Shown piece by piece: positions 189 to 7,183 of a stretch of DNA of 22,174 nucleotides. The stretch is from the IMG/VR virus record IMGVR_UViG_3300008459_000458, positions 1 through 22,174 of that record. One strand, written 5' to 3'. A program made the translations under genes and the position numbers. A model generated the notes under the pieces. That model worked only from the letters and a program-made list of their open reading frames with translations, did not search any database and had not been told where the DNA came from. Positions within the stretch are counted from its first letter, which is position 1. Each line of letters opens with the position of its first letter. The stretch is from a virus.

Positions 189-554
189 ATGAAAAATACA
201 TTACAAGAAAATATGCGTCGTTTTGGTACTAAGAATTTATCTGAACAAACTACGCAAAATAATTTAACTCCTGATGAATTAGCTGTATTGGGACTTTCTG
301 CCATGGCGGTAATGGCAAAAACAGATATTCAGAACACTACAACGGATGATTGGATGGCTGGTTTTGAACGAAATAAAAAAGTAGGGAAATTAGCACAAGA
401 CTTATTTAATAAAAAACAATCTGGTACTGGTACGTATGATAAAACCATATTTCAAGTAATGTTAAATGTACTGAAGGAAATGTATCCTAATCAGGCAGAT
501 GTTGATGAATTAATTAAACGAGGAACTAATCTTACTCATTTTTCAATTACATAG
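189..554 (+). CDS. Putative internal head protein with cleavable capsid-targeting leader
   Basis: A 121-residue protein of unknown family. Its first 20 residues share 16 identities with the N-terminus of the minus-strand protein at 5512-6087, including ENMRRF at 7-12 and TKNLSEQ at 14-20; the rest of the two proteins is unrelated. The LSE at residues 17-19 fits the (L/I)-X-E consensus cut by T4-type prohead proteases. T4 internal proteins carry short N-terminal targeting sequences removed this way, so a role inside the capsid is inferred. The mature part is mostly helical in appearance, with a hydrophobic patch at about 30-44 (ELAVLGLSAMAVMA). No SD is visible before the ATG. A strong terminator follows at 610-644, marking the end of this transcription unit. 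The function after processing is unknown. Confidence 0.7.
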   Translation: MKNTLQENMRRFGTKNLSEQTTQNNLTPDELAVLGLSAMAVMAKTDIQNTTTDDWMAGFERNKKVGKLAQDLFNKKQSGTGTYDKTIFQVMLNVLKEMYPNQADVDELIKRGTNLTHFSIT

Positions 555-4200: not shown

Positions 4201-4848
4201 ATGAGTACAAAAAATATTCCAGAGAACATCTTTAAAAAATTTAACAAAGTTCTGTTTAAAACAGGAGATGCTGTTTGTTTTACATGGTTTGGAGAACGTT
4301 GTTATGGATATGTAGTTCGATCTAAAAGAAATACATGGGGTGTACAATATACCGTTGAAATGGATGGTATAAAGTATCCATGTGGTATACAAATAGATGG
4401 ATATAAAACTAAGTATGCAACGGGTTGTGTATTATACGACGACACACAAAATACAGATACAGAAGAATTAAAGCGTAAAGCATCAATTAAACCAGAAATA
4501 TATAATTCAATTACCGTTAAAAGAACTACGTATGAGCAATCAGGATCCGACCAACCTAGACAAGTTTCTACAAACAACAGAAGGAAAAAAACTAAAAGCA
4601 CAGACGATGATAGATTACGCGGAACGGATGTTGATACCGTTGATTCAAAAACTACATCAGACACCGCCATCGGAGTTTCCGGAACAATTGATACTGGGAC
4701 TAGCAATACACGAATGCGTCGACGCAATAGTAAAGAACCAAGCAATACTAAACCAAAAAAAGAAGTCAAGAAAAAAGAAAATAAAGATTTAGAAGATGCT
4801 ATAAAGAAGCAAAAGGCATTTTTAAGTGGATTTGTTAAAAAAGAATAA
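4201..4848 (+). CDS. Protein with SH3/KOW-like N-terminal domain and disordered basic tail
   Basis: A 215-residue protein, taking the ATG at 4201 (MSTKNIPENIF) as the start. An in-frame ATG at 4183 would add six residues but would overlap the previous gene's end. Residues about 17-80 form a strand-rich domain with pattern KTGDAVCFTWFG...GYVVRSKRNTWGVQYTVEM, similar in style to SH3/KOW modules and to the protein at 2206-2481. From about residue 95 the sequence is low-complexity, rich in Thr, Ser, Asp, Lys and Arg, and ends in a charged helix (DLEDAIKKQKAFLSGFVKKE). The low-complexity tail coincides exactly with a second open frame (4532-4792) on the same strand. A terminator follows directly at 4851-4875. 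The function is unknown. Confidence 0.6.
   Translation: MSTKNIPENIFKKFNKVLFKTGDAVCFTWFGERCYGYVVRSKRNTWGVQYTVEMDGIKYPCGIQIDGYKTKYATGCVLYDDTQNTDTEELKRKASIKPEIYNSITVKRTTYEQSGSDQPRQVSTNNRRKKTKSTDDDRLRGTDVDTVDSKTTSDTAIGVSGTIDTGTSNTRMRRRNSKEPSNTKPKKEVKKKENKDLEDAIKKQKAFLSGFVKKE
4532..4792 (+). CDS. Candidate overprinted 86-aa helical protein nested in the 4201-4848 gene
   Basis: An ORF of 86 residues in the +1 frame relative to its host gene. Unlike random shadow frames it reads like a compact helical protein. KFLQTTEGKKLKAQTMIDYA and ERMLIPLIQKL at about 11-41 are followed by PPSEFPEQLILGLAIHECVD and AIVKNQAIL, then a basic tail (KKKSRKKKIKI). The host frame is low-complexity over the same bases, and this stretch uses more C and G at third positions than its surroundings (gcc, atc, tcc, gac, cgc), as expected if two frames are constrained. 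No SD precedes the ATG. Coding status is uncertain; if real, this is a gene-within-a-gene, with the host's tail the more permissive frame. Confidence 0.4.
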   Translation: MSNQDPTNLDKFLQTTEGKKLKAQTMIDYAERMLIPLIQKLHQTPPSEFPEQLILGLAIHECVDAIVKNQAILNQKKKSRKKKIKI

Positions 4849-4961: not shown

Positions 4962-5522
4962 ATGAAAAATGCAATAACTATATTATTCGTCGTAATTAAT
5001 AGTTTTTCTTTTGCACAGACCCAATTGGATTTAATCCTATTAAATAAAGTTAATGCATATAGAAATAGTAAAGGATTACATTCACTGATTTGGAATAATT
5101 CATTGTATTTAGTTGCAGATAATCAAGCACAATACATGTTATTATCTAACAAAGTATCCCATGATCAGGAATTGCGTGATTCAATTATTTCAAAATCATT
5201 TGTTCCTGAGCCTAGTTTTACTGCTAGATTTATAAAATTTATGGATTACATTGGTACTAGAAGGGTCGGAGAAAATTTAGTTGCCCATAAAATACCATCA
5301 TATACTAATATCAATTTAGATAGCCTATCTAATAAATTACTAGAATCTTGGATATTTTCTCCAGCCCATAATGCATTATTATTAGACTCTGCTATGTGCG
5401 AAGCTGCTATATGCAATAAATATAGAGAAAATCTGTTAGAGGTCGATCCAGAAACTCTAGATTTTGTATACTCTAACAGATTATATGTTTCATATGAATG
5501 TTACACGGATATTACTGAGTAG
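4962..5522 (+). CDS. Secreted CAP (SCP/YkwD-like) domain protein
   Basis: A 186-residue protein with an N-terminal signal peptide: MKNA, hydrophobic ITILFVVINSFSF, and a predicted signal peptidase I cut after FA (residue 18) before Gln19. The FAQ ending is typical of Bacteroidota exported proteins. The rest matches the CAP fold: LLNKVNAYRNSKGLHSLIW (about 26-44), His67 in VSHD, Glu104 in GENL, and the signature SWIFSPAHNALLLD at 129-142 with His136. These His/Glu positions correspond to the conserved CAP cavity residues. Bacterial CAP proteins act outside the cytoplasm, often at the envelope, but their biochemical role is poorly defined. In a phage a role at the cell envelope during lysis or superinfection is possible but unproven. 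It overlaps the convergent minus-strand gene by 11 bp. A host-derived cargo gene is a reasonable explanation. Confidence 0.8.
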   Translation: MKNAITILFVVINSFSFAQTQLDLILLNKVNAYRNSKGLHSLIWNNSLYLVADNQAQYMLLSNKVSHDQELRDSIISKSFVPEPSFTARFIKFMDYIGTRRVGENLVAHKIPSYTNINLDSLSNKLLESWIFSPAHNALLLDSAMCEAAICNKYRENLLEVDPETLDFVYSNRLYVSYECYTDITE

Positions 5523-6087
5523 ATTGTGTTCCGATATTCAGTTGTTGAGTTGTTTTAGATCTAGGTGGTTGTACAGTAACCGGAACATCTTTTGCAGCTT
5601 GTTGTTGCTGTGGTGTAGCTAGTGTAGTTTTATATACAGTATCATCATCATAAGAACTAAGCAAGTCTTGCTGTCTTGATAGTAAAACAGATAATGCGGC
5701 CTTAACGGTCCCAGCTCCAAAATCACCATCTACGAACGGAGCTGTTTTACCAGATAAAGTTTTTATCTTTTCAATTCCAAATTCTTTTTGAAAATTTTGA
5801 ATTCTTGGATCTTTTTCTTTATAACCTAAACTACGAAAATACTGTATAGGTGCGGTATCGTTAATTAAACTGTCATTTGACAAAGATCTTTGTATAATAG
5901 CTATACGTTCTTTTATTGTTAAATCATCGGTAAAATTTAATTTATCTTTAGCATATTTAGTTACAAAGTCTATATAAAGTTGTTTAGATGATGGCAATCT
6001 AAATACAGCAAATACGTTTGTAATGTTTTGTTCAGATAAATTTTTAGTTCTAAAACGGCGCATATTTTCAGCTAGTATATTTTCCAT
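5512..6087 (-). CDS. Leader-bearing protein with peptidoglycan-binding-like segment
   Basis: The only clear minus-strand gene, 191 residues. Its first 20 residues share 16 identities with the protein at 189-554 (ENMRRF at 7-12, TKNLSEQ at 14-20), with the LSE putative prohead-protease site at 17-19. Residues about 92-140 (PRIQNFQKEFGI ... FVDGDFGAGTVKAALSVL) follow the PG_binding_1 pattern, whose hallmark is a D-G-x-F/Y-G-x-x-T-x-x-A segment; here it reads VDGDFGAGTVKAAL. The C-terminal 45 residues are Gln/Thr/Pro-rich and probably disordered. This suggests a head- or virion-packaged protein that may bind cell wall, although the two halves of that idea have not been seen together. A motif copy (6104-6112) on the minus strand lies 16 nt before its start. 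Its end overlaps the convergent CAP gene by 11 bp. Confidence 0.65.
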   Translation of the reverse strand: MENILAENMRRFRTKNLSEQNITNVFAVFRLPSSKQLYIDFVTKYAKDKLNFTDDLTIKERIAIIQRSLSNDSLINDTAPIQYFRSLGYKEKDPRIQNFQKEFGIEKIKTLSGKTAPFVDGDFGAGTVKAALSVLLSRQQDLLSSYDDDTVYKTTLATPQQQQAAKDVPVTVQPPRSKTTQQLNIGTQSTQ

Positions 6088-6103: not shown

Positions 6104-6112
6104 AATAAATAT
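6104..6112 (-). promoter_or_regulatory. Predicted late promoter on the minus strand, ATATTTATT
   Basis: On the minus strand this reads ATATTTATT, 16 nt before the start at 6087. It is the only minus-strand gene and the motif is turned with it, which argues that the motif is directional rather than just AT-rich filler. Confidence 0.5.
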
Positions 6113-6118
6113 AAAGTA

Positions 6119-6166: not shown

Positions 6167-7183
6167 ATGATAAGATTTGGTTATGCATGTATTAACATGG
6201 ACTTAAGTAGCAAAGGTATTCGTACCGGTCGCACAATGATTGAACGCAAATTCAAAGCTGGTGGACTACGATTAGCTGGAGATATATCTCTAGAAAATGC
6301 TAAAGATTTACTTCCAATACTCAAATGGAATGAGCAGAATGGCATTCGATTGTTCCGTATCGGATCTGAATTATTTCCTAGATGGAATCATTATGAATTA
6401 CATGATTTACCAAACATCGATCAGATTGCTAAGCATCTTCGAGCTGCAGGTGATTATGCTCGAGAACATGGTCATCGCGTTACTACCCATCCTGGTCCGT
6501 TTCATATACTAGGTAGTCCTGATAGTGTGGTTGTTGATAATAGCATTGTAGGTTTAGAACGACATAGTGAAATGTTTGATCTCATGGGTTATGCTCCTAG
6601 TTATGAAAATAAGATCAATATTCATATTGGTGCTACATATGGCGACAAACAATCCACCGTGCAGCGTTGGCTTCATAATTATGATCGTTTATCTGATTCT
6701 CTTAAGAAACGATTGGTCATAGAAAATGATGATAAGGCATCAATGTATTCTGTACGAGACTTATATGAAATGGTGCATTCAGAAATTGGTATTCCTATTA
6801 CATTTGATTATTGGCATCATACTTTCAATACCGGTGACTTATCCGAGCAAGAAGCATTTTTTATGGCTCGTTCTACTTGGCAGAAACATGGCGTTACTCA
6901 ATGCACTCATTACAGTGAATCTCGCCGTGCTGAATTTCAAGGTATCATCGAGGGTATATGTTCTAAGAATGGTATCAGTATGGAGGAGTTACCAACCTGG
7001 CCATCATTTAAAAAACTACACACTGAATATGGCAAGATAAAAGCTCAGGCACATGCAGATTATATTACTCAGCTTCCGTGTACATATGGTGTTTCTGATT
7101 TAGATATTGTGGTAGAAGCAAAAGCTAAAGAACAATCATTGCTTCAAATAGCAAATACACAAAAAATTGCTATGATTTTATAA
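6167..7183 (+). CDS. uvdE: UV-damage endonuclease (UVDE family)
   Basis: A 338-residue protein with the TIM-barrel pattern of UVDE, an endonuclease that nicks DNA 5' of UV photoproducts and some other lesions, starting alternative excision repair. The N-terminus reads IRFGYACINMDLSSKGIRTG, matching the family's opening RLGYxxINM. Likely metal and active-site residues are His108 and His113 (THPGPFH), His153 (NIHIG), Glu186 (VIENDD), Asp214 with His217/His218 (DYWHH), His248 (THYSES) and Glu317 (DIVVEAKAKE). All family landmarks are present, so it should be active. T4 uses the unrelated DenV glycosylase for the same kind of damage. The gene has no phage structural neighbours on its own strand and follows a candidate non-late promoter, suggesting expression before late genes. 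It is followed by an intergenic gap with a late-promoter motif. Confidence 0.9.
   Translation: MIRFGYACINMDLSSKGIRTGRTMIERKFKAGGLRLAGDISLENAKDLLPILKWNEQNGIRLFRIGSELFPRWNHYELHDLPNIDQIAKHLRAAGDYAREHGHRVTTHPGPFHILGSPDSVVVDNSIVGLERHSEMFDLMGYAPSYENKINIHIGATYGDKQSTVQRWLHNYDRLSDSLKKRLVIENDDKASMYSVRDLYEMVHSEIGIPITFDYWHHTFNTGDLSEQEAFFMARSTWQKHGVTQCTHYSESRRAEFQGIIEGICSKNGISMEELPTWPSFKKLHTEYGKIKAQAHADYITQLPCTYGVSDLDIVVEAKAKEQSLLQIANTQKIAMIL

Follow-up and report, generated by a model that had tools for sequence, protein, structure and literature searches.

Genes and features of the locus

The window analysed here is the whole stretch of 22,174 bases, a fragment that holds neither head genes nor a protease gene. 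Two of its open reading frames, at 189-554 (+) and 5512-6087 (-), encode products, here called protein 1 and protein 2, that begin with closely similar peptides (residues 1-20 are MKNTLQENMRRFGTKNLSEQ in protein 1 and MENILAENMRRFRTKNLSEQ in protein 2). The features of these genes and of the locus around the second are as follows.

189..245 (+): leader of protein 1, residues 1-19 (MKNTLQENMRRFGTKNLSE); from the sequence, cuts are predicted after E7 (LQE) and E19 (LSE)
246..551 (+): body of protein 1, the predicted mature part, an orphan of 102 aa with no Pfam or PHROG match and no relative among viral contigs
4204..4848 (+): left flank, GDAVxFxWxG protein, syntenic in G001, G002, G004 and G005
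4962..5522 (+): convergent partner, a CAP-domain protein with a signal peptide (PF00188, E 2e-9), the last 11 nt of its gene overlapping that of protein 2
5515..6030 (-): body of protein 2, an orphan of 172 aa; its resemblance to peptidoglycan (PG)-binding proteins is unconfirmed
6031..6087 (-): leader of protein 2, residues 1-19 (MENILAENMRRFRTKNLSE); from the sequence, cuts are predicted after E7 (LAE) and E19 (LSE)
6105..6113 (-): late-box-like TATATTTAT, 18-26 nt upstream of the protein 2 start, related to the box of the leader genes
6167..7183 (+): right flank, UvdE-like UV endonuclease (PF03851, E 1e-56), syntenic

The preliminary description of this DNA held that the two proteins agree at 16 of the first 20 positions but are unrelated afterwards, and both points were borne out. 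The runner-up N-terminal pair among the 64 window ORFs compared is identical at 7 of 20 residues, and the highest N-terminal identity in 300 shuffles was 10. BLASTP similarity between the two proteins is confined to residues 1-24 (E 2e-8), and their bodies are therefore unrelated. The leader motif occurs twice in the record and not at all in its backwards control, and different codons are used at 3 of the 16 residues common to both leaders. The proposed cleavage site, LSE at 17-19, is present in both proteins, but the tag has two L-x-E sites rather than one, the other being at residues 5-7 (LQE or LAE). The PG-binding-like segment attributed to protein 2 found no support from profiles: there was no Pfam match at E<=10, no PDB match and no match to the PG profile of the clade, and a single-sequence structure model (pLDDT 45) was unusable. 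A tagged protein at the equivalent locus of a relative does match PG_binding_1 (1.8e-8). Among viral contigs, the relatives of protein 2 comprise one record that is 100% identical, and none was found for protein 1. The window protein at 1129-1932 starts with MKKSVEYIIRETIKEILSEAP, in which L/I-x-E motifs end at 11, 15 and 19, and possibly represents a further leader class.

Distribution of the leader

A search for the leader beyond the window found it at the N-termini of many proteins encoded on IMG/VR contigs. A degenerate DNA pattern for ENMRRFxTKNL matched at least 119 stretches, nearly all of which translate at the extreme start of an ORF, and a pattern for the variant ENMLRF matched 94 further stretches. 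After removal of duplicates, the matches listed comprise 184 distinct leader-bearing proteins, in a sample drawn by motif from metagenome fragments with simple gene calling. The bodies behind the leaders of these 184 proteins form 88 BLAST clusters, or 106 once the extended ENMLRF leader is removed; an apparent 21-member body family was rejected and the clustering redone, as the family was held together by the extended leader and not by the body.

The ENMRRF leader gave no tblastn match in 50,697 isolate phage records, even at E 10, and since the leader of phage immuto (see below) was recovered by a short query of this kind, we take the exact ENMRRF leader to be absent from these isolates. Nor was the ENMRRF pattern matched in GTDB genome contigs, or ENMRRF found in the literature searched. 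The window belongs to a T4-like group; judged by the gp6 homologue, the isolates closest to it are Mel-JY01 of Microcystis (53%) and immuto of Flavobacterium (43%). The leader is spread over a large uncultured group of aquatic T4-like phages.

Two tandem L-x-E sites define the leader

The consensus of the leader, M-K-x-x-[IT]-L-x-E-NM[RL]RF-x-x-KN-L-x-E, contains two tandem L-x-E sites. Because the search pattern fixes the E, N, M, R, F, K, N and L, these residues cannot be counted as conserved, and the informative positions are those left free. At site 1 the P3 residue, which the pattern does not force, is Leu in 183 and Ile in 1 of the 184 proteins among the matches listed. At site 2, leaders of the ENMRRF type have Glu at +12 in 49 of 51 cluster representatives, the other two having an L-x-E at +13 and +15. 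Leaders of the ENMLRF type, which may extend to about 50 residues, have an L/I-x-E between +15 and +27 in all 36 representatives, against an expectation of 6.5-8.3% per 14-residue span further along the same proteins, although these 36 are not fully independent because their leaders are partly homologous beyond +12. Exceptions among the 184 listed are the short L206, which is without a second site, and L198, in which this site is at +35. P2 is variable: at site 1 it is A, S, Q or K, and at site 2 it is N, S or T, among others. Q and S predominate immediately after the second site. As read from sequence, this arrangement of P3 and P1 with a free P2 is the T4 gp21 cleavage rule, L/I-x-E (PMC9026906).

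Codon diversity at most invariant leader residues is near the background of the same genes, and where residues agree within a locus, 29% are encoded by different codons. Selection thus favours the peptide and not the DNA.

In most tagged records the leaders are accompanied by a gp21-type protease. PF03420 was matched in 20 of 28 leader-bearing records (9 of 12 and 11 of 16), including 10 of the 11 that reach 90 kb or more. The E values are near 1e-31 to 1e-36 save for one truncated copy, and none of 14 control genomes gave a match. Most copies of the protease have an L-[NTS]-E near residue 18-20 of their own N-terminus, and the N-termini of the major capsid protein (MCP) and scaffold bear conserved L-x-E sites; with sites in all three proteins, the L-x-E rule holds in the head proteins of this group independently of the tag.

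A shorter leader and an analogous leader in an isolate

A motif-free, all-against-all comparison of N-termini inside genomes recovered the ENM(R/L)RF set together with a second class of leader, MI(K/R)LK-x-LL-x-E, of 10 residues. In seven records an L/I-x-E ends at residue 10 in 48 genes, with 10.2 expected; the N-termini of T4 IPII and IPIII, MKTYQEFIAE, likewise end at Glu10. In at least nine body families, some members follow the long leader and others the short one, so that the two leaders are probably interchangeable, with a minimal signal of about 10 residues. Since homologues can follow MI(K/R)LK-x-LL-x-E with nothing added, the smallest sufficient tag is probably the initial 7-10 residues, up to and including L-x-E. 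The block ENM(R/L)RF-x-x-KNL-x-E would then be an added cassette carrying a predicted second cut site.

An analogous double leader, LVENKLTTNSKILKE (also FLVENKLTTNSKILKE), stands before four mutually unrelated bodies in the isolate immuto, and its spacing from E to E is 12, as in the ENMRRF leader. Two otherwise different immuto proteins (MW353175, 25061-25456 and 111675-112139) have in common MKKQILSEQF(K/R)RMQxLAGIITES, a further isolate leader with L-x-E and I-x-E sites.

The tagged bodies

Against Pfam, 86 long-leader bodies gave six matches (best E 0.005) and against PHROG five, all of them weak, whereas 86 length-matched genes of the same genomes gave strong matches to 72 Pfam and 95 PHROG families. 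As no match is better than 0.005, most long-leader bodies are not recognisable wall enzymes. The short-leader proteins include some that combine Phage_lysozyme2, M23 and PG_binding, GDSL and lysozyme2, or LysM and lysozyme domains. These tagged lysozyme, M23 and LysM proteins could be lysis enzymes and not necessarily head proteins, so that the tag class may be heterogeneous.

Several recurrent segments were seen in tagged proteins. A module D-x-DQNNNGYPD-x-(S/T)E, which resembles a calcium-binding repeat, follows the leader in many unrelated proteins (L015:10839-11237, L029, L052, L116 and others); DLENKLGFDSGANRDPRTGN is another such segment; and the short-leader proteins at G001:107621, G002:45633 and G004:70091 have a GxGDNxxVY segment that recalls the glycine loop of kinases.

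Leader genes paired with exported partners

Flanked by the GDAVxFxWxG gene on one side and uvdE on the other, the locus is organised alike in the window, G001, G002, G004 and G005, and in G005 it holds a short-leader PG_binding_1 protein. In the window the protein 2 gene converges on a gene for a protein with a signal peptide. With signal peptides (Bacteroidota-like) assigned by a hydropathy rule, such a tail-to-tail gene was found for 54 of 64 testable ENMLRF leader genes, compared with 10 of 81 other convergent neighbours (12%), and for 4 of 80 ENMRRF genes, protein 2 of the window among them. Among the partners are CAP proteins (6 of 33), rhomboid proteins (2) and orphans. Pairs of an ENMLRF leader gene and a signal-peptide gene also lie next to uvdE at loci such as L134, L230 and L267.

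Bodies and partners tend to vary together: among pairs of bodies of less than 60% identity, partners are similar in 16 of 34, with 1.3 expected and a maximum of 6 by a permutation that removes phage kinship only partly. For the cargo family paired with CAP proteins, a model of the C-terminal part, of moderate confidence (pLDDT 72), has OmpA-like peptidoglycan-binding domains as its best matches (Foldseek E 3.7e-4; VIA Z 7.8), a likeness that with a Z below 8 is suggestive only.

We tentatively entertain the possibility, which we would not yet favour, that these are polymorphic two-gene cassettes in which a head-packaged, injected and often peptidoglycan-targeting protein is matched with a co-diversifying, convergent, exported partner, as an effector is with its cognate partner. 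Were this so, the pair might, for instance, guard a cell already infected against superinfecting virions, or reshape its wall once the phage has entered. We know of no counterpart of the exported partners in the biology of the T4 internal proteins.

An upstream box shared with virion genes

Of the leader representatives, 62.5% are preceded by the box TATTTATA, compared with 14.4% of 857 other genes. In G001 and G002, where virion genes were named by homology and position, the same box is found in front of the genes for sheath, tube, portal, scaffold and baseplate and of further virion genes. Where leader genes and their partners were compared, the late box was found for 52 of 58 leader genes and 18 of 58 partners, against a background of 22%. 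From this putative promoter box, common to leader and virion genes, we infer that the leader genes are expressed late.

What the leader may do

Taken together, these observations make it likely that the leader is a capsid-targeting propeptide like the T4 CTS, in a new and more elaborate form, with packaging of the tagged proteins and cleavage of the leader both putative. A tag with a head-protease site on about 100 unrelated proteins probably marks proteins that are loaded into the head and delivered to the host. The idea of a portable capsid-targeting tag, put forward in the preliminary description for two proteins, now has strong comparative support, in 184 proteins with some 106 bodies, in the retention of L/I-x-E, in the gp21-type protease of 20 of 28 records, in selection at the level of the peptide, in the box common to virion genes and in swapping with the short leader.

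According to this model, the tagged proteins would be made late, together with the products of the virion genes, and the leader would carry them into the prohead core by way of a core or scaffold component. The gp21-type S77 protease, to judge from the motif and the gene content, would then cut after the tandem L-x-E sites, releasing one peptide of 7-10 residues and one of 12. The variable bodies would stay in the DNA-filled head and, if T4 is a guide, leave with the DNA at infection.

It is unlikely that the leader sorts its protein uncut, docking to part of the scaffold, portal or tail and remaining on the protein. The ENM(R/L)RF and KN residues are as conserved as the L and E, as would fit a binding surface, and conservation cannot by itself prove cutting. 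However, fixed P3 and P1 with a free P2 match the gp21 rule, the displaced second sites keep that rule elsewhere in the leader, which a rigid docking surface would not need, and the tagged phages encode gp21-type proteases. The short-leader proteins with lysozyme2, M23, PG_binding, GDSL and LysM domains, and the OmpA-like domain model of one ENMLRF family, could point instead to a localisation or lysis tag that directs proteins acting on peptidoglycan, and others related to them, to the envelope and plays no part in the head. Yet the leader has no hydrophobic stretch, most of the 86 long-leader bodies compared with Pfam are not recognisable wall enzymes, the L-x-E logic would be left unexplained, and a wall binder without a signal peptide could also reach the periplasm by ejection; we consider such a tag quite improbable.

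It is formally conceivable, too, that the leader has no targeting role and is a relic of recombination, a 5' segment spread by gene conversion or duplication. Leaders do occur on many bodies, in tandem arrays (G001, 126-130 kb) and swapped on homologous bodies, but the codon diversity at most invariant residues indicates that what is kept is the peptide and not the DNA, and this reading, which we rejected, has very little probability left. We retain the capsid-targeting propeptide as the working interpretation.

If it is correct, a single peptide pattern lists, from DNA alone, candidate head-packaged and injected proteins in a large uncultured group whose cargo is almost wholly unannotated. 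T4 IPI blocks a host restriction enzyme, and since the T4 internal proteins include this restriction blocker, the tagged list is one of candidate counter-defence or takeover proteins. The leader would also be a naturally diversified targeting signal, a candidate for loading proteins into the heads of other phages, and would expose the paired exported partners.

Relationship to known systems

The kind of tag is already known, since the T4 CTS, described on the internal proteins IPI, IPII and IPIII (Mullaney and Black, 1996; reviewed in PMC9026906), was proposed as a general route for loading varied proteins (PMC9026906). Like it, the leaders described here are short N-terminal propeptides that end in L/I-x-E and head otherwise divergent proteins of phages encoding a gp21-type S77 protease; the short class ends at Glu10 as does MKTYQEFIAE. 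Agreement with that T4 sequence is limited to the L/I-x-E end and, in the short class, Glu10, a stretch too short to weigh either way. Unlike the T4 CTS, the leaders have another sequence; the long class has two sites 12 residues apart and the NM(R/L)RFxxKN block; ENMLRF leaders reach about 50 residues; there are far more cargo families, and secreted partner genes; and the tag is found in an uncultured aquatic clade related to immuto and Mel-JY01. The anatomy of the leader thus agrees with the T4 CTS in all features that can be read from sequence, while targeting, cutting and ejection would be carried over from T4 by analogy.

The propeptides of the head ejection proteins of the giant phages SPN3US and phiKZ are similar in having multiple P3-x-E cuts by an S77-type protease (PMC10052503, PMC5694885), but follow an A-x-E rule, are mostly 79-254 residues long and are not one common tag. 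The immuto leader MENFDLKKFLVENKLTTNSKILKE, for which we found no description as a tag in the literature searched, has the same succession of L-x-E, 12 residues and L-x-E on four unrelated bodies, in a genome with an annotated prohead protease; it differs in an internal sequence unrelated to NMRRFxTKN and in being confined to four proteins of one genome. Against this background, what is new is the layout with tandem sites, how many cargo families there are, a short form that is probably interchangeable with the long one, and the exported partners that are cognate to the cargo.
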